Assembly: GCA_001824435.1 (NCBI GenBank)
Contig: MHXH01000023.1
Coordinates: 66,148-121,941, forward strand
From: Parcubacteria group bacterium RIFCSPLOWO2_01_FULL_48_18
Lineage (GTDB): Bacteria > Patescibacteriota > Minisyncoccia > UBA6257 > WO2-01-48-18
DNA: 55,794 nt
Direction of reading: 5' to 3'
Below are positions 2,482-33,261 of this stretch, one piece after another (the stretch's first letter is position 1; each line of letters begins with the position of its first letter). The notes beneath the pieces were generated by a model that worked only from the letters and a program-made list of their open reading frames with translations, did no database searches and was not told the DNA's origin. The position numbers were made by a program, and so were the translations under genes.

Positions 2482-3603
2482 TTAAAACAAAACCGGAATC
2501 CGAAATGCATCCGCATGCTCCGGAAGACCGGAGGGATTATCTCTTTCCAATACCAGCGTTCCTTCCTTTGTTTCCGGCGGCGCAAACTGAAGAGTGGCCC
2601 GGAATGGCACAAATTCTTCGGTCATCCATTCTCCATCTGCTTGCGCAACGGCAACGCTAATCTCTTTCACGTTTCCGTCAAAAAGTCGAACCGGAAATGA
2701 CGCCTCAAAAAACCAATATCCCCGCGCCTCCCCTTGAACCAACAAAGGACTTTCAATTTTCGCGCCGGCCTGGGGCGTAAAAACACGAATAAGATTCGCT
2801 TTCTCTGCGCCGGATCGGAGGACAGTCTCCATAAGACGTTCCTGCTCTGCGTTCCTCATCTCTACCTGTTCTTTAATATCTTTCGCCTGCTTCTTTACGT
2901 CAAGTCCTTGCTCAAAAACCGTCTGTTGGTTTCCGGTTCTTGACGCATTAAAATAGAAACCTCCGAAAATCGCAACAGCAATGAAGGCAACGACCATGAT
3001 GATTTCAATCAATGCAAACCCCGTTAGATCCCCGCCCTGAATGGCGGGATTTTTTATCCCTCGGAACTGAGTCCCTTCGGGCCGTTCAGGTCTTCGACTC
3101 CGAGTCTCAGACTCGAGGAGCTCTGAGGAGCCCTCAGGACGTTCGTCTCCGAGAGACTCAGTCTCGACGAGCTCGAAGAGACGAACATCCGGCTTTAACG
3201 GAACATCCTGGTCCAGCTTCAAAGAAGCAGAATTAATACAGTAGCGCTTGCCTGTCGGTTTCGGACCGTCCTCAAACACATGCCCCAAGTGGCCGCCGCA
3301 ACTGCTGCAATGCACTTCGGTTCTGCGCGTATTCAAACTATCATCCGGCTCGGTTTCAACATGCGAATCCGAAACCGGCTCGCAAAAACTCGGCCAGCCA
3401 GTGCCAGAATCATATTTCGCATCAGAAGAAAACAATTCGTTGCCGCACGCGGCGCATCGATACATTCCCTTATCTTTGCAATTCCAATACGTACCGGTAA
3501 ACGCCCGTTCGGTTCCCTTCTGCCGCAGTACCTGAAACTGATCAAGTGCCAACTCTTTTTTCCATTCTTCATCGGTTTTAATGACCCTGGGCGCTCCTTT
3601 CAT
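2482..3603 (-). CDS. msrB: MsrB methionine sulfoxide reductase fused to membrane-anchored Gmad2 domain
   Basis: Residues 1-130 are a complete MsrB, which reduces methionine-R-sulfoxide: zinc cysteines 50, 53, 99 and 102, and catalytic Cys122 in RYCINSASL. Residues 283-373 form a Gmad2 immunoglobulin-like domain ([30 protein letters not shown]) preceded by a membrane helix (200-218) and a short coiled coil. The ORF is open throughout, but the linker (residues 145-195) is encoded by a block of palindromic repeats, which suggests that two genes were joined when repeats replaced the msrB stop. The Gmad2 part may also be made separately, from ATG at 2997 or TTG at 3012 (GGGG six bases upstream). 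The preceding [12 protein letters not shown] resembles a prepilin cleavage site. Confidence 0.8.
3019..3190. repeat. palindromic repeat block inside the MsrB-Gmad2 ORF
   Basis: Starts with CCCCGTTAG, the same end as the elements at 19209 and 37410, then a hairpin CCCGCC/GGCGGG followed by ATTTTTT on the plus strand, then consecutive palindromes containing CGAGTCTGAGACTCG and CTGAGG/CCTCAG. Similar blocks occur near 6110-6180, 37480-37600 and 51735-51795. Confidence 0.7.
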
Positions 3604-3775
3604 AAGCGTTACACAAATCTATTATGCAGCGATGTTCACTTTAAATCGTATCAATTCTTCAGACAGACAGAAAGCGCAATTGAATAATGTACACCCTCCA
3701 CCCGCCCGAGGCGAATGGAGGGGAATCTGTCTTCATGGGATCTTCGGACGAGGCCGAATGACGCCCCGAATCTAA

Positions 3776-3955
3776 TCATGAAAGACGCTTACGTTCACGT
3801 TCTGCGCTTTGTCCGACGCCGAATTCCTGATCCAGACGAGCCAGCTGTTCTTGCGGCGAGCGTTTGGATCGCTCGGCCTGAAGCTCCAGCGCTTTCAACC
3901 GCCGACGCTCACGACTAGCCCTACCGCGGACCTTGGTACGAGCACGAAACGACAT
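3776..3955 (-). CDS. small basic protein, 59 residues
   Basis: An ATG with a strong Shine-Dalgarno (AAAGGAGAAAAGA) opens a 59-residue, highly charged reading frame ending in TGA. It starts MSFRARTKVRGR and contains SPQEQLARLDQEFG and SAERERKRLS; the central part is predicted helical. From memory, similar short proteins with an (S/T)PQEQLARLD motif recur in Patescibacteria; function is unknown. A hairpin in the leader (TGTCCG near 4000 pairing with CGGACA near 3969) lies just upstream of the ribosome site and could influence translation. Confidence 0.65.
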   Translation of the reverse strand: MSFRARTKVRGRASRERRRLKALELQAERSKRSPQEQLARLDQEFGVGQSAERERKRLS

Positions 3956-4101
3956 TCTTTTCTCCTTTCACTTGTCCGCCACAAATGATTTTTGGACGGA
4001 CATCGGGGAGTTGCCGCAATTCTTGCGACGAGGACCACCGACCCATTCCGATGGTATAGTTACAATTCTAGCATATAATATAGCCCTTGTCAGGCAAGCG
4101 T

Positions 4102-4131
4102 AAATAAAACAACCCAAGCTCCGTGCTTGGG
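4102..4131 (-). terminator. terminator of the lipoprotein gene
   Basis: Minus-strand stem CCCAAGC/GCTTGGG with a five-base loop, followed by TTGTTTTATTT, directly after the stop of the 4148 gene. Confidence 0.75.
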
Positions 4132-4147
4132 CGTTAACCAAGAAAAA

Positions 4148-4564
4148 CTACCGCGAACGAGACAAGTGATACACCGCGGGCGGAATGGTACTTCGAAAAT
4201 TAGGAGCGATTTTCAGCAGAATACTAGAGCCCGGCTCTACGTAGATAGGACCAAGCGTCATGAACCTAGTCGACCCCGGCGTAAAATTGCTCGGCGCAGC
4301 TTCAAGAAGCAAATAAAAGCCATCGGCTCCAAATTTGCTTACGTGGAATTCTTTTTTAAAAGACGAGCCGCCGCTTACCTTTTCAATACGGCCAAGCTTC
4401 ACGCCAGCAGGACTCACAAGATAAATCTTCACATAATCTACGTAATTATTTTCGACCTGAAACATAACGGGCGCGTCATGGGGCGCCTCGGGAACGGGCG
4501 CGCGGTGAACGCATCCACCAAGAACCAAAGAAGCAAGCACGATGCCCGCATGCGACGTATTCAT
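4148..4564 (-). CDS. hypothetical lipoprotein
   Basis: A 138-residue protein with a lipoprotein signal peptide (MNTSHAGIVLASLVLGGC, lipid-modified Cys18). The mature part looks like a small beta-sandwich (VENNYVDYVKIYLVSPAG, ending in YVEPGSSILLKIAP). The layout resembles small secreted proteins that carry a modified residue-binding face, but no named family is recognised. The start at 4564 has AAAGGG nine bases upstream; a TTG six codons earlier is possible. It is followed by its own terminator, so it is probably a single-gene unit. Confidence 0.7.
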   Translation of the reverse strand: MNTSHAGIVLASLVLGGCVHRAPVPEAPHDAPVMFQVENNYVDYVKIYLVSPAGVKLGRIEKVSGGSSFKKEFHVSKFGADGFYLLLEAAPSNFTPGSTRFMTLGPIYVEPGSSILLKIAPNFRSTIPPAVYHLSRSR

Positions 4565-4653
4565 TTCAAACGACCCTTTCAACCATAATTTTCAAATTCC
4601 CCTAGTAAGTATAGATAAGATGTTAGGGAAAAACAAGACGCATGACGGACTTC

Positions 4654-5982
4654 TTATTGGCCGGCCGTGTATTCAATTTTATAAATCACTCCGGCTTTGT
4701 CGTCGGAAAGATACATCACTCCTCCGGGCTGGATTACAATATCTACCGGTCGGCCGTACGCGCTGCCGACGTTGATCGGATATCCTCGGGAAAGATCGGG
4801 CGGGCTTTGGGCATCTACAAGAAAGCCGGTGATAAAATCCTCCACGCCTTCATAGATATATCCTTTCTCCTGACGAGGGGTCAGTTTGTGGCGTACAACT
4901 TTATAGCCGGCTGGCACGCTTCGGTTCCATGAACCATGGTATGCCACAATCAAGTCATGCCAATACTCTTCGGGCCATCCGCCACCTGGCGGATCTTCCG
5001 ACACGAACGCCAAACCGAGCGGAGCCGAATGCGCCGGCACATCAATAAAGGCCGGTTCTTTTCCAATGCAGAGCGAGCCGGGAATATCTTTTCCAAATGG
5101 ATCCGGCACATTCTGGCCATAACAATACGGCCAGCCATAATCCCTTGCCCCGACCTCCATCAAGGGGGCATTCTCTTTTATGAGATTAATTTCGTCCGGC
5201 GGAAGATCATCCCCAAGCAAATCCCTTCCCATCTCGGTCGCAACCATATCTCCGAACACATAATCCCATGTGAAAAACACAGAATTGCGCAGACCGCGGG
5301 CATATATTTTGGATTGTTTCGACTCCGTATCATATTGAATGATTGTCGAGCGGCGCCCATCGGTTTCCACGCATACATTACAACTCGATCCTGTAGAAAT
5401 ATACAACTTATCATCCGGGCCGAAACCGATAGTGCGCGTATAGTGGCCATCGCAGCACGGCAGATCCAAAATCTTCTCGCGCTGATTCGTGTCCGGAAGC
5501 CTTACGCGGAACACTTTATCATCTTCGGCCACGTACAGCACATCCGGATCGCGATGATCAAATGCAAGCCCATGCGGCTTTCGAAGATTCGTAAAAACTT
5601 CCTTCTTCGCTATTCCCTTTTCGCTCATCATTAACTGTACTACCTTTCCTTCGCTCGTAAGCGAGACCCACATATTCCCCTTCGAATCAAACCGCATCAC
5701 TCGCGCGCCGGGCAGATCTTTCGCAAAAATCGAAATTCGAAATCCTGCCGGCAGAATAAACGGGAAATTAGTATCATTCTCTGCCGAAGGCAATGTGCCG
5801 CGTTCATCAAATCCTGCTTCCGGAAGAAGCTTTGCAATATCCTCCGGCGCCGGCCCAAAAACCGGCTTTACATTCACCGGCGCAATCCGGCACCAATCGC
5901 TCTGACAGCCATAAATCAAAAACCAAGCGGCAAACAATACGCATCCGACCGCTACTGTAAAAATAATCAAAGCTCGTTTCAC
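4654..5982 (-). CDS. PQQ-dependent sugar dehydrogenase / sorbosone dehydrogenase family protein
   Basis: About 442 residues: an N-terminal membrane anchor, then a six-bladed beta-propeller of the glucose/sorbosone dehydrogenase type (LPAGFRISIFAKDLPGAR, GLAFDHRDPDVLYVAEDDKVFR, GRDLLGDDLPPDEIN, VAYHGSWNRS). Such proteins oxidise sugars or aldehydes outside the membrane. The reading frame continues upstream to 6108, but those roughly 40 extra residues (rich in EEERRRRSR) are encoded by an inserted repeat element. I therefore prefer the GTG at 5982, with GAGAG seven bases upstream. A palindrome at 4977-4994 contributes PPGGG to the protein. PQQ synthesis genes are not in the window. Confidence 0.75.
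   Translation of the reverse strand: MKRALIIFTVAVGCVLFAAWFLIYGCQSDWCRIAPVNVKPVFGPAPEDIAKLLPEAGFDERGTLPSAENDTNFPFILPAGFRISIFAKDLPGARVMRFDSKGNMWVSLTSEGKVVQLMMSEKGIAKKEVFTNLRKPHGLAFDHRDPDVLYVAEDDKVFRVRLPDTNQREKILDLPCCDGHYTRTIGFGPDDKLYISTGSSCNVCVETDGRRSTIIQYDTESKQSKIYARGLRNSVFFTWDYVFGDMVATEMGRDLLGDDLPPDEINLIKENAPLMEVGARDYGWPYCYGQNVPDPFGKDIPGSLCIGKEPAFIDVPAHSAPLGLAFVSEDPPGGGWPEEYWHDLIVAYHGSWNRSVPAGYKVVRHKLTPRQEKGYIYEGVEDFITGFLVDAQSPPDLSRGYPINVGSAYGRPVDIVIQPGGVMYLSDDKAGVIYKIEYTAGQ
4977..4994. repeat. TCCGCCA/TGGCGGA palindrome inside a coding sequence
   Basis: ATCCGCCA and TGGCGGAT separated by two bases. The same palindrome occurs between genes at 13538, 19456 and 20014; here it encodes the PPGGG stretch of the sugar dehydrogenase-like protein. 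Confidence 0.65.
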
Positions 5983-12281: not shown

Positions 12282-13514
12282 CTATGGCAGAAACTGCCTT
12301 AGGAATCGTAACACGCCGCTCCCCCTACTTGCAAGTGGAAAAGATTTGCGCGTTCTCTCTTCTGCGCCCCATAAAAACAGACCGAAGGCCAACGCCATTT
12401 CAGGATCATCAAAAGAATCCCTAAATTCTTTCGGCGGATTATCGAATGCGGCATTGGTCGGCACGCCAATCTGCGCAGGCAAACGCAATTCTTGTTTTAT
12501 AAAATCTACCATTCCCGGCAACTTTGCCCCTCCCCCGACCAGCACCGCCCCGCCAGGCAACTGAGCGTGGCGGCCGATATGTTTAAGCTCATTATTCACC
12601 ACATCGACTATTTCCGCAAGTCTCGTTTCGACAATCTCCGAAATGAAACGGCGGGAAATAATGCCGTCAATTCCTGCCGCCATCTTGGCCAGATCGATAT
12701 AGTCGCGCCGAGATATCTCTTTCGACTGCGCCGCGCCGAAGGACAATTTTATGCTCTCGGCAACGGCGATGGGAGCCTTGATTCCTATGGCAATATCATT
12801 GGTGACATGCGCCGAACCCAAGGGAAACACCTTCGCATGGAGCAGTTTTCCCTCTTCAAATACCGCGAGTCCGGTCGTGCTTGCGCCGAAATCCAAAAGA
12901 ACCGACCCCAATTCCATCTGCGTTTTCGATAATACTGCCTTTGCCGACGCGAGCGGACCGAAAATAAGTCCGAAGATTCGCAGTCCGGCTGATTCGGCGC
13001 ACTTATGGATATTCTTGAGCACCGGGCTAAACGCGCTGATGATAAAACTTTCCACCTCAAGGCGCGCGCCGGAGAGCCCTACTGCATCACGAATGTCGCC
13101 AATGCCGTCGACAACGAATTCCCGTGGAATGACATGAACCACTGTCCGATTAGCAGAAAGCGGAATTGCCTGCGAGGCTTGAATAACCCGTTCCACGTCT
13201 TCGTGGGAAATCACGTCATCCGCGCGGGAAACGACCACAAATCCTTTAGAATTTTTGACATCGACATGAGCGCTGCCGATATTGGCAAACACGTTCTTAA
13301 GCGCCAAACGAGAAATGGCCTGAATATCCGCCGCAACCTTCGCCAACGAAACAGACGCGTCTTCCATATCTACAATCATTCCTTTGCGCATTCCCGAAGA
13401 CGGCTGACGCACTGCTCTCAGAAACCGGTACTTTCCTTTTTTGCTCAAAATACCAACAACGCCTTTAATGCTGCTCGTCCCGATATCAAGACCAACAATG
13501 ATTGGTTGGGCCAT
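12282..13514 (-). CDS. ftsA: cell division protein FtsA
   Basis: A 410-residue actin-like ATPase: phosphate-1 VGLDIGTSSIKGVVG, an inserted 1C domain, phosphate-2 LLDFGASTTGLAVFEEG and the adenosine motif VLVGGGAKLPGMVDF. It tethers FtsZ to the membrane; the basic C-terminal tail (GVLRFLRQFLP) looks like the membrane-binding amphipathic helix. It is the first gene of the ftsA-ftsZ pair and is preceded by a repeat-filled intergenic region. Confidence 0.96.
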   Translation of the reverse strand: MAQPIIVGLDIGTSSIKGVVGILSKKGKYRFLRAVRQPSSGMRKGMIVDMEDASVSLAKVAADIQAISRLALKNVFANIGSAHVDVKNSKGFVVVSRADDVISHEDVERVIQASQAIPLSANRTVVHVIPREFVVDGIGDIRDAVGLSGARLEVESFIISAFSPVLKNIHKCAESAGLRIFGLIFGPLASAKAVLSKTQMELGSVLLDFGASTTGLAVFEEGKLLHAKVFPLGSAHVTNDIAIGIKAPIAVAESIKLSFGAAQSKEISRRDYIDLAKMAAGIDGIISRRFISEIVETRLAEIVDVVNNELKHIGRHAQLPGGAVLVGGGAKLPGMVDFIKQELRLPAQIGVPTNAAFDNPPKEFRDSFDDPEMALAFGLFLWGAEERTRKSFPLASRGSGVLRFLRQFLP

Positions 13515-13587
13515 GCAATAAAGAATCTAGAATCTAGTCCGCCATCTGGCGGATAGAATCTAGAATCTAGAATTTAGAATTTAGGAC
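13515..13587. repeat. short-word repeat cluster with embedded palindrome
   Basis: GAATCTAGAATCTAG-type words repeated several times, with a TCCGCCA/TGGCGGA palindrome at 13538-13553 in the middle. It fills the whole gap between ybeY and ftsA. Confidence 0.75.
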
Positions 13588-19350: not shown

Positions 19351-19375
19351 CTGCCTGTCGGCAGGCAGGCAGGCA
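19351..19375. repeat. GCCTG/CAGGC palindrome
   Basis: CTGCCTGTCGGCAGGCAGGCAG-type palindrome; related copies at 32261-32282 and 46232-46272. Confidence 0.6.
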
Positions 19376-30322: not shown

Positions 30323-31999
30323 TTAGACAGCAAACTCAATTCTCTCCAAAGACCGCGGAGCCAGATAGAGCGAAAGAACAATGATACACAGCGAACCGAT
30401 CCCAAAAAGGACCAGGGGAACAAGTGAAACAACGGTCAGATAATGGTACAAGGACAGAGCTCCGGCAGCGCCGTACGCGAGCGAACCGAAGATGAATACC
30501 AAGCCCGGAAGCGTAGTCGTAAGCACTGCCGGATCGTCCGTCTCAAAATTGGGAAACAATGCTCCCAAGCCAAGGCCAAGGGCAGTAATTGCCGCAATGG
30601 AAAGGATAATATACGCCAGAAACAGGACAGCGCTCGCAAATGAAATTCCCACGATTGCCGAATTGATAAGTCCTACGCTCACGCCAAGTACCGTAAAAGC
30701 CGCTCCGTAAAAGAAAAACTTGCCCCAGAATATACGAGAAATAGCAATCGGAGAGGTCGCGATAATCCACGCTGTTTTACGTTCAACGCTGAAGGCCGGG
30801 AATGCAAACCGCAAGGCGAAGGCGCTGATAAAATATGCGACCGCGACAATCTGGAGCGCTTGAATAATATCCGGCACGCTTTCCGGCCGGACGCGGTACT
30901 TTACCATATTGTTTTTCAGAAAGAAATTAAGCGCGGTCTGCGCAAACCACACCGACAGCAAAAACCCGATCCACATCAGATCGCGCGCATTGCGCACGAG
31001 CATGAGCGCCTCTTTCTCAAAAACGGCGCCGATGGGAGTTTTGAAAAAACGAGGGAATGATTTGAGTGTGTGGCCATCTGCAACGCGCGTACGCGCTTCA
31101 AATCTGCCTTCTTGCAACGATTGCCAGAGGGGCAAGTACCAGCGCGACAAGAAAACGAAAACTGAAAAACTAAGAAGAAAAAGAACCAACAGTTTGCCCA
31201 TAGTAACAATAGCGCCACTCTGCTGATTTTCTTGCGCGGCAAAAAGAGTAAGAGCTGACAAATGAGATGGAAATATTCCAAACCGTTCCAAGATCACCTT
31301 GACGCCGGCAACTTCCGCTTTCATGTCATGGAGATCAAACAGTTCCAACACATCGGCAGTAGCCGACTGCTGCCAAGCTACATACGAACATGCAATAAAT
31401 AGTACCGAAACGGCCGCAATAAGCCTTCCCAACAATAATCCGGATGATGCGCCCTTGCGATGGAAAAAACGAAGAACAATACCCATGCCAAGAAGTACGA
31501 CAAGCGCAATGCAAACCGTAAACGCGATTAAAACAGAAACGGATATAAACGCGATAAGCAAATTGAACTGGGCAACGGCAAACACCTTTCGCATGGCCAC
31601 GAGCGCCGGCAAGGCAATCACCAAAAGCGGCCAGAACGATGAAACAAACACCCGCGCATACGCATAGAATGGCATGAAGCGGAATTTCGGCGAAGCCATT
31701 ATCCAGCCGTCATCTCCTGCTTTAAAAAGCTGGAACAATCCTGTGATCAGCGCGCTCGCAAACACCAAATACGTAATAATCAAAAGGAAAAGTTCATACA
31801 CATATAAGGGCAGGGCAGAGCGCAAAAACGGATCGGATACCATGAACTGAAAACTCGCCTTTAAGAAAACAAAAATTCCGGCGGCAACGCCGGCAAACAC
31901 TAACAAAAATATTCCGGCAGTAATCCACTTTGCCAGCCGTTGCGTCTGGAAATAACGAAGGATCTTCAACCAATGATATTGTAATAAGAGAAAAGTCAT
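30323..31999 (-). CDS. ABC transporter permease
   Basis: A 558-residue protein with about twelve membrane helices in two blocks and no cytoplasmic enzyme domain, resembling the large permeases of ABC-2-type exporters. It is partnered with the ATP-binding protein at 32344-33066 upstream on the same strand. A 315-bp element inserted between the two genes ends seven bases before this start codon, so its ribosome site (GAAGG) partly lies in the flanking duplication. Substrate unknown. Confidence 0.75.
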   Translation of the reverse strand: MTFLLLQYHWLKILRYFQTQRLAKWITAGIFLLVFAGVAAGIFVFLKASFQFMVSDPFLRSALPLYVYELFLLIITYLVFASALITGLFQLFKAGDDGWIMASPKFRFMPFYAYARVFVSSFWPLLVIALPALVAMRKVFAVAQFNLLIAFISVSVLIAFTVCIALVVLLGMGIVLRFFHRKGASSGLLLGRLIAAVSVLFIACSYVAWQQSATADVLELFDLHDMKAEVAGVKVILERFGIFPSHLSALTLFAAQENQQSGAIVTMGKLLVLFLLSFSVFVFLSRWYLPLWQSLQEGRFEARTRVADGHTLKSFPRFFKTPIGAVFEKEALMLVRNARDLMWIGFLLSVWFAQTALNFFLKNNMVKYRVRPESVPDIIQALQIVAVAYFISAFALRFAFPAFSVERKTAWIIATSPIAISRIFWGKFFFYGAAFTVLGVSVGLINSAIVGISFASAVLFLAYIILSIAAITALGLGLGALFPNFETDDPAVLTTTLPGLVFIFGSLAYGAAGALSLYHYLTVVSLVPLVLFGIGSLCIIVLSLYLAPRSLERIEFAV

Positions 32000-32005
32000 C
32001 CCTTC

Positions 32006-32320
32006 TACGAGTTACGCAGTTGAATTGTTGGGTTCCCCTCGGCAATTTCGAAATTATTATCCTGTTCGCTTGACGCTTCGGAGTGGACAAATAATAGTCG
32101 GCTCGCTACGCTGCGCGCAGAACTTGACCTCGTCCGCCCTTGGCGAACTCGGGACTCAAACAGGCTGTGCTCGCTACCCGCCTCCTTTATTTGTGACCAC
32201 TCCTTCACTATATCGCTCACAGGATAATAATTTCTTCGTTAGAAAAAGATCAAAAGATATGCCTGCCTGCCGACAGGCAGGCCTCGACCCAACAATATAT
32301 GCTCAACTGCGTAACTCGTA
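32006..32320. mobile_element. 315-bp foldback element in the ABC operon
   Basis: Outer perfect 18-bp inverted repeats TACGAGTTACGCAGTTGA / TCAACTGCGTAACTCGTA, flanked by the 5-bp direct duplication CCTTC (32001-32005 and 32321-32325). Inside are further nested pairs: ATTGTTGGGT/ACCCAACAAT, AAATTATTATCCTGT/ACAGGATAATAATTT and GGAGTGG...CAAATAA with its complement, plus a GCCTGCCT palindrome at 32261. Transcripts would fold into one long arm. No transposase. Confidence 0.85.
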
Positions 32321-32343
32321 CCTTCGATAAAGCCCGGGGTAGG

Positions 32344-33066
32344 TTAGCCGGTGAGGGTTTTATAAATGTCCTCAAGCGTTGCCGGGCGCTTTAATTGCGC
32401 CTTTGCCAGAAGCCCATCGAACGACTCTGAAGCGACGAGCCGGCCTTTTTTCAGCACGCCGATCCGATGCGAAAGCTCCTGAGCAACCGAAAGCGTATGC
32501 GTAGCTAAAATCACTGCGCCGCCGTTTTTTGCGAATCGAGCAAATTCTTTTTTTGCGGCTTCGGCGCTCGTCGGATCAAGACCGACAATCGGCTCATCGA
32601 TAAGCAAGAGTTTTGGCTCATGCAAGAACGCGGCCAAAATTGTAAATTTCTGTTTATTGCCCCGCGAGTATGATTCAAAGTACTCTTTTTCAATCCCTTG
32701 AAGATCAAATACTGAAAGCAGCCCCGGGATGCGTTGCGTGCGGGTTTTTTCATCAACGCCATACATCGCACCCACAAAATGAAGAAATTCCTCGCCGGTC
32801 ATTTTAGGCCAGACCGACGGTTCATCGGGAATATAGCCGATGAAGGATTTCGTCTTTATCGATTGCCGTACGACATCGAATCCTCCAACCTCAACACTGC
32901 CGCCGCTCGGCCGCAAAAGTCCGACGATCGTTTTAATGATCGTTGTTTTCCCCGAACCATTCGGCCCGATAATCGAATAAATCTCTCCGGGCCTAATTTC
33001 AAACGATACATCGTTGACTGCCGCATTCGTCCCGAATTGCTTGATAAGATTCTGTACGCGAAGCAT
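32344..33066 (-). CDS. ABC transporter ATP-binding protein
   Basis: A 240-residue ATPase: Walker A GPNGSGKTT at 34-42, a signature region YSRGNKQKFTI (a variant of LSGGQ), Walker B LLLIDEPIVGLD and switch histidine in ATHTLSVA. It energises export by the permease encoded next (30323-31999). The gap between the two is filled by the 315-bp foldback element, which could reduce or uncouple permease expression. Confidence 0.92.
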   Translation of the reverse strand: MLRVQNLIKQFGTNAAVNDVSFEIRPGEIYSIIGPNGSGKTTIIKTIVGLLRPSGGSVEVGGFDVVRQSIKTKSFIGYIPDEPSVWPKMTGEEFLHFVGAMYGVDEKTRTQRIPGLLSVFDLQGIEKEYFESYSRGNKQKFTILAAFLHEPKLLLIDEPIVGLDPTSAEAAKKEFARFAKNGGAVILATHTLSVAQELSHRIGVLKKGRLVASESFDGLLAKAQLKRPATLEDIYKTLTG

Positions 33067-33146: not shown

Positions 33147-33157
33147 CTAGTGCTGAA

Positions 33158-33242
33158 TTAACTTAATTTTGATGCGGCCGTTGTCGCAAAACGTCCCATA
33201 AACACAGTATTTTTTATCACAGAGCAGGCAAAATTAAGTTAA
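33158..33242. mobile_element. 85-bp MITE-like element
   Basis: Perfect 14-bp inverted repeats TTAACTTAATTTTG / CAAAATTAAGTTAA, flanked by a TGAA direct duplication (33154-33157 and 33243-33246). It sits between a gene and its terminator. No relation to the other families is visible. Confidence 0.75.
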
Positions 33243-33261
33243 TGAAGTACTGGTTCTACGC

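Follow-up and report, generated by a model that had tools for sequence, protein, structure and literature searches.

A transposase-less fold-back element with IS701_2-like ends lies between the ATPase and permease genes of an ABC exporter in a Parcubacteria group bacterium

Results

We analyzed a stretch of 55,794 nucleotides (the window) from Parcubacteria group bacterium RIFCSPLOWO2_01_FULL_48_18, in which a fold-back element of 315 bp is located between the genes for the ATPase and the membrane permease of an ABC exporter (Table 1). The original prediction had described a nested fold-back with perfect 18-bp ends, a CCTTC duplication, and three inner inverted pairs, which parts these two genes, and we re-found all of these components at this position. 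Besides the three nested pairs, the element contains a local GC hairpin. The longest ORF overlapping the element encodes 101 aa, and a transposase gene is absent. A 71-aa ORF on the minus strand of the element was rejected as coding because the second copy of the element in the genome carries a frameshifting indel.

Table 1 Features of the fold-back element and of the flanking exporter genes (window positions)
Feature	Position	Strand	Remarks
Membrane permease gene, downstream of insert	30323..31999	-	558 aa, Pfam ABC_tran_2 PF16949
Target-site duplication, copy 1	32001..32005	.	CCTTC; from sequence
Fold-back element	32006..32320		315 bp
TIR TACGAGTTACGCAGTTGA, permease side	32006..32023	+	18 bp, 100% complementary to ATPase-side TIR
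Inner inverted pair, left arm ATTGTTGGGT	32024..32033	.	partner 32287-32296, 10/10 complementary
Inner inverted pair, left arm, 16 nt	32050..32065	.	partner 32219-32234, 16/16 complementary
Inner inverted pair, left arm, 10 nt	32080..32089	.	partner 32194-32203, 9/10 (90%) complementary
Inner inverted pair, right arm	32194..32203	.	
Inner inverted pair, right arm, 16 nt	32219..32234	.	
Hairpin GCCTGCCTG-TCGG-CAGGCAGGC	32261..32282	-	dispersed palindrome; terminator-like in operon direction, tail ATATCTTTTG
Inner inverted pair, right arm ACCCAACAAT	32287..32296	.	
TIR, ATPase side	32303..32320	-	
Target-site duplication, copy 2	32321..32325	.	CCTTC
ABC transporter ATPase gene, upstream of insert	32344..33066	-	240 aa, PF00005

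The terminal inverted repeat (TIR) on the permease side is separated from the permease ATG by 6 nt. When the element and one CCTTC are removed, the gap between the ATPase and the permease genes is 24 nt. In a relative from the same order but another family, the homologous genes (ATPase 62%, permease 37% identical) overlap by 4 nt and carry no insert. Both observations support that the element was inserted into a compact operon. The empty site that had been proposed as a check was thus found in part, namely as an uninterrupted homologous pair in another family and not as an exact empty site; among the genomes covered, the source was the only one of its genus and family. The claim of an insertion as such is strongly supported by the TIRs, the 5-bp duplication, the second copy, the IS701-type ends described below, and the uninterrupted homologous operon. 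Since the permease gene is open across 558 codons, the insertion is tolerated by this gene.

The second copy is located on another contig (G000:C17:34665-34939), is 91% identical, and has lost about 40 bases of one end, so that the genome holds two copies, one of them truncated. It sits exactly between a 6-phosphogluconate-dehydrogenase-like gene and a putative membrane protein gene, both named from sequence only and unrelated to the exporter, and its orientation relative to the flanking genes is opposite. This copy, together with identical ends on real insertion sequences elsewhere, argues against a chance origin of the fold-back.

The exact 18-bp TIR TACGAGTTACGCAGTTGA recurs in unrelated bacteria from other phyla, where we found it in 28 contig stretches. 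We counted up to 105 occurrences of the core GNNTTACGCAGTTG in nine of these genomes, compared to one of the reversed control, and they often form inverted pairs 83-510 bp long. Exact 5-bp duplications flank 17 of 28 such MITE-sized inverted pairs, whereas the chance expectation is about 0.03 (28/1024, exact match required). A 1,047-bp element with the ends TAGGACTTACGCAGTTG in a Pyrinomonadaceae genome (locus L117) encodes a 332-aa transposase that matches the NCBIfam model transpos_IS701_2 (NF049921) with 356 bits (cut-off 250); this full insertion sequence has no exact duplication at its two ends. Plasmid-borne relatives of the transposase were identified in Gloeocapsa, Gloeocapsopsis, Meiothermus, Allomeiothermus (annotated as ISMesi2 family), and Methanosarcina. 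The ends common to these five are (T/C)AGGA(G/C)TTACGCAGTT, and four of the five insertion sequences show exact 5-bp duplications (ATGCT, TAGGA, GCGGA, ATGGT), while the flanks of the Allomeiothermus element share a 7-bp match. In an alignment of 22 ends from the window, insertion sequences, and MITEs, the columns TTACGCA and TT are invariant; position 3 of the TIR is C in the window, whereas it is G in most of the aligned ends. Matching IS701-type ends occur in Cyanobacteria, Deinococcota, Acidobacteriota, and Methanosarcina. Judged by this alignment, the ends of the window element are assigned to the IS701_2 (ISMesi2-like) group. The window element and the insertion sequences of this group share the 17-bp end motif TANGA(G/C)TTACGCAGTTG and 5-bp target duplications; for comparison, ISTth8, an IS701 member from Thermus, is listed with 4-bp repeats (PMC6352166). 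In contrast to these insertion sequences of about 1.04-1.14 kb, the element of 315 bp lacks a transposase gene and has an unrelated interior. Sequence similarity stops at the TIR and the interior has no detectable match to the IS701 elements encountered, which indicates that it did not arise by deletion from any of the insertion sequences found here. Literature searches, which covered the end motif, ISMesi2, and the MITEs known from this lineage, returned nothing relevant.

An IS701_2 transposase was not detected in the source genome, a draft that is 96% complete and consists of 29 contigs, either with NF049921 (E ≤ 0.001) or with the Pyrinomonadaceae transposase (E ≤ 10); the mobilizing enzyme is for this reason inferred. 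Assemblies often lose repeated insertion sequences where contigs break, and it is possible that one is concealed at such a break in this genome. Among 244 genomes of the order, the transposase search yielded one weak relative below the cut-off. The TIR motif was found neither in the other genomes of the order nor in 383 other genomes drawn from the class. The element DNA had no match in plasmids and phages, and the exact 18-bp TIR had none in viral contigs; 11 matches to a relaxed TIR in viral contigs were missing a convincing paired end and were judged to be chance. As neither a transposase was found in the genome nor the end motif in the other genomes sampled from the order and class, the element is most simply an orphan MITE, either taken up from elsewhere or a remnant whose partner has been lost, with horizontal acquisition being probable.

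Searches with the element gave matches in 41 of the 244 order genomes. Nearly all of them consist of the CCTGCCTGCC/CCTGCCTGCCGNCAGGCAGG palindrome, and presence of the element in these genomes was rejected as the matches almost all represent the CCTGCCTGCC hairpin alone. In the source genome, the palindrome CCTGCCTGCCGNCAGGCAGG is dispersed, with occurrences at window positions 19359, 32262, and 46233. A dispersed CCTGCCTGCC palindrome within the element would be in line with a palindromic repeat of the REP/RAYT type rather than a product of TIR transposition. However, the palindrome accounts for only 22 of the 315 bp, and the 18-bp TIRs and the 5-bp duplication are the same in kind as those of IS701-group elements, which makes a REP/RAYT origin highly improbable.

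Other inverted repeats were observed nearby and elsewhere in the genome. Just upstream of the ATPase gene, window positions 33149-33251 harbor an unrelated fold-back with 23-nt arms (87% complementary) and the core TTAACTTAATTTTG; by eye, G000:C11 (L078) holds a close copy of it and C19 (L090) a similar one, and it appears to represent a further small family of MITEs adjoining the exporter operon. An inverted-repeat element of about 98 bp with the related ends CACGACTTACGCAGTTG is present at G000:C21 about 13435-13540 (L011) and at G000:C19 about 4675-4775 (L090), with no clear 5-bp duplication.

The capacity of the element to fold on itself, which had been put forward originally, was confirmed by computational RNA folding, with values about 10 SD better than those of shuffled sequence. 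The predicted energies are -143.5 kcal/mol for the minus strand (z-score -10.1) and -127.3 kcal/mol for the plus strand (z-score -10.8) relative to dinucleotide shuffles, none of which equalled the element on either strand. Rfam covariance models gave no match at E ≤ 1 within 31900-32500. The hairpin facing the operon direction resembles a terminator, having a 9-bp stem with 7 GC pairs and a weak tail ATATCTTTTG. In the mRNA of the operon, the 3' arm of the stem falls into the ribosome-binding region. Between -20 and +12 of the permease start, bases have a mean probability of 0.21 of being unpaired with the element present, compared to 0.53 without it; nearest the start codon (-8 to +3), this value is hardly altered (0.32 vs 0.36). 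Due to the very stable stem just 5' of the permease start, lower permease expression, probably to a modest extent, is the likeliest effect predicted from RNA folding and the consensus scan. The terminator-like hairpin would act in the same direction, while a promoter-like site (TTGATC-18-TATTAT, minus strand, 32253-32224) could offset the reduction.

If functional, this site might supply the permease gene with a promoter. The match is weak, however, comprising 9 of 12 positions of a consensus that may not be that of this lineage, and three such sites are present in the region on both strands compared to 0.7 expected in shuffles; we therefore regard a promoter carried by the element as very unlikely.

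The fold, the short distance to the permease start, and the orientation of the terminator-like hairpin would also suit an element co-opted for post-transcriptional regulation, be it as a stabilizer, an RNase target, a terminator, or a translation block, that sets the ratio of ATPase to permease. For ERIC and Neisseria MITEs, effects on the stability of mRNA or on its cleavage by RNase have been reported (PMC2229807, PMC10969869). Comparison of the two genomic copies points in the other direction. Substitutions affect 16 of 182 predicted paired and 5 of 91 unpaired positions and include one clear compensatory pair; although this is a weak test with two copies only, stems are no less affected than loops, so that a conserved RNA structure is unsupported and there is no sign of selection on it. 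Moreover, the absence of the element from the other genomes of the order and from the class sample speaks against a conserved role. In view of these data and of the opposite-facing copy among unrelated genes, a mobile element with incidental effects fits better than a regulator evolved for the exporter, and we consider co-option unlikely.

Discussion

The element between the exporter genes is a MITE, i.e., a non-autonomous mini-transposon. It represents a known group of transposons, here in an uncommon host, and its arrival between the two genes is an ordinary event of mobile DNA. We consider it very probable that this IS701_2-ended MITE was inserted in trans at CCTTC, the likeliest consequence being a modest drop in permease output, for which there is no evidence of selection. 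Based on the anatomy of the element and on its relatives, a DDE transposase of the IS701_2 group would have been supplied in trans, recognized the ends of 17-18 bp, and placed the element between the two exporter genes under duplication of 5 bp. Lacking a transposase, the element is unable to move alone. In a co-transcribed mRNA, it would form a long hairpin whose 3' arm stops 6 nt short of the permease start codon and whose upstream part contains the weak terminator-like hairpin, and the close coupling of the two genes would presumably be lost. An effect on the exporter is plausible, as RNA effects have been reported for MITEs elsewhere, and the regulatory role originally envisaged for the fold-back is possible as a reasonable by-product of a mobile element. 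Correia/NEMIS and ERIC elements are likewise MITEs that fold and are co-transcribed with neighboring genes; they reside in other hosts, and their RNA effects have been studied experimentally (PMC10969869, PMC2229807). The Chunjie MITE of Geobacter uraniireducens was also inserted into an operon, the structure of which was undisturbed according to the title of the paper (Genetics 2008, cited in PMC10969869); it is likened here by operon insertion only.

MITEs of Desulfatirhabdium, Desulfonema, other Desulfobacteraceae, Pyrinomonadaceae, and Chloroflexota MAGs share their ends with the window element and, like it, have 5-bp duplications and interiors rich in nested palindromes. They differ from it in that the interior varies from genome to genome and that several hosts contain far higher copy numbers. 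The same pattern of identical ends and differing nested palindromes was observed at loci L119-L136, L054, L065, L066, and L070. Palindromic cargo seems to be a general trait of MITEs with IS701-type ends. Depending on the host, the palindromes are of the CGTTCCCACGC, CACCCCCCGGCCCC, or CCTGCCTGCC type. The notion that these interiors are host repeats in their own right found only partial support: in a DNA sample biased towards TIRs, all CACCCCCCGGCCCC motifs were close to TIRs, whereas 6 of 35 CGTTCCCACGC and 7 of 9 CCTGCCTGCC motifs were located elsewhere. It is conceivable, though decidedly unlikely, that IS701_2-type ends serve as a cross-phylum carrier of palindromic DNA by which hairpins are preferentially captured or mobilized, with the window element being the sole example encountered in its class and its RNA altering the balance of the exporter subunits. 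As a separate observation, positions 2715-5888 of locus L117 form a 3,174-bp unit flanked by AAAAT/AAAAT, in which an IS701_2 element and a same-ended MITE occupy the two ends and which also holds a hydrolase-like gene; it apparently represents a composite transposon of insertion sequence and MITE.

Overall, a transposase group can now be named for an otherwise anonymous fold-back. The same 17-bp ends are found on autonomous elements of bacteria and archaea as well as on MITEs of several phyla, whose hosts now include one genome of a small-genome lineage, the sampled relatives of which lack the element. In addition, the exporter locus provides a simple test case for whether an insertion between two subunit genes changes their stoichiometry.
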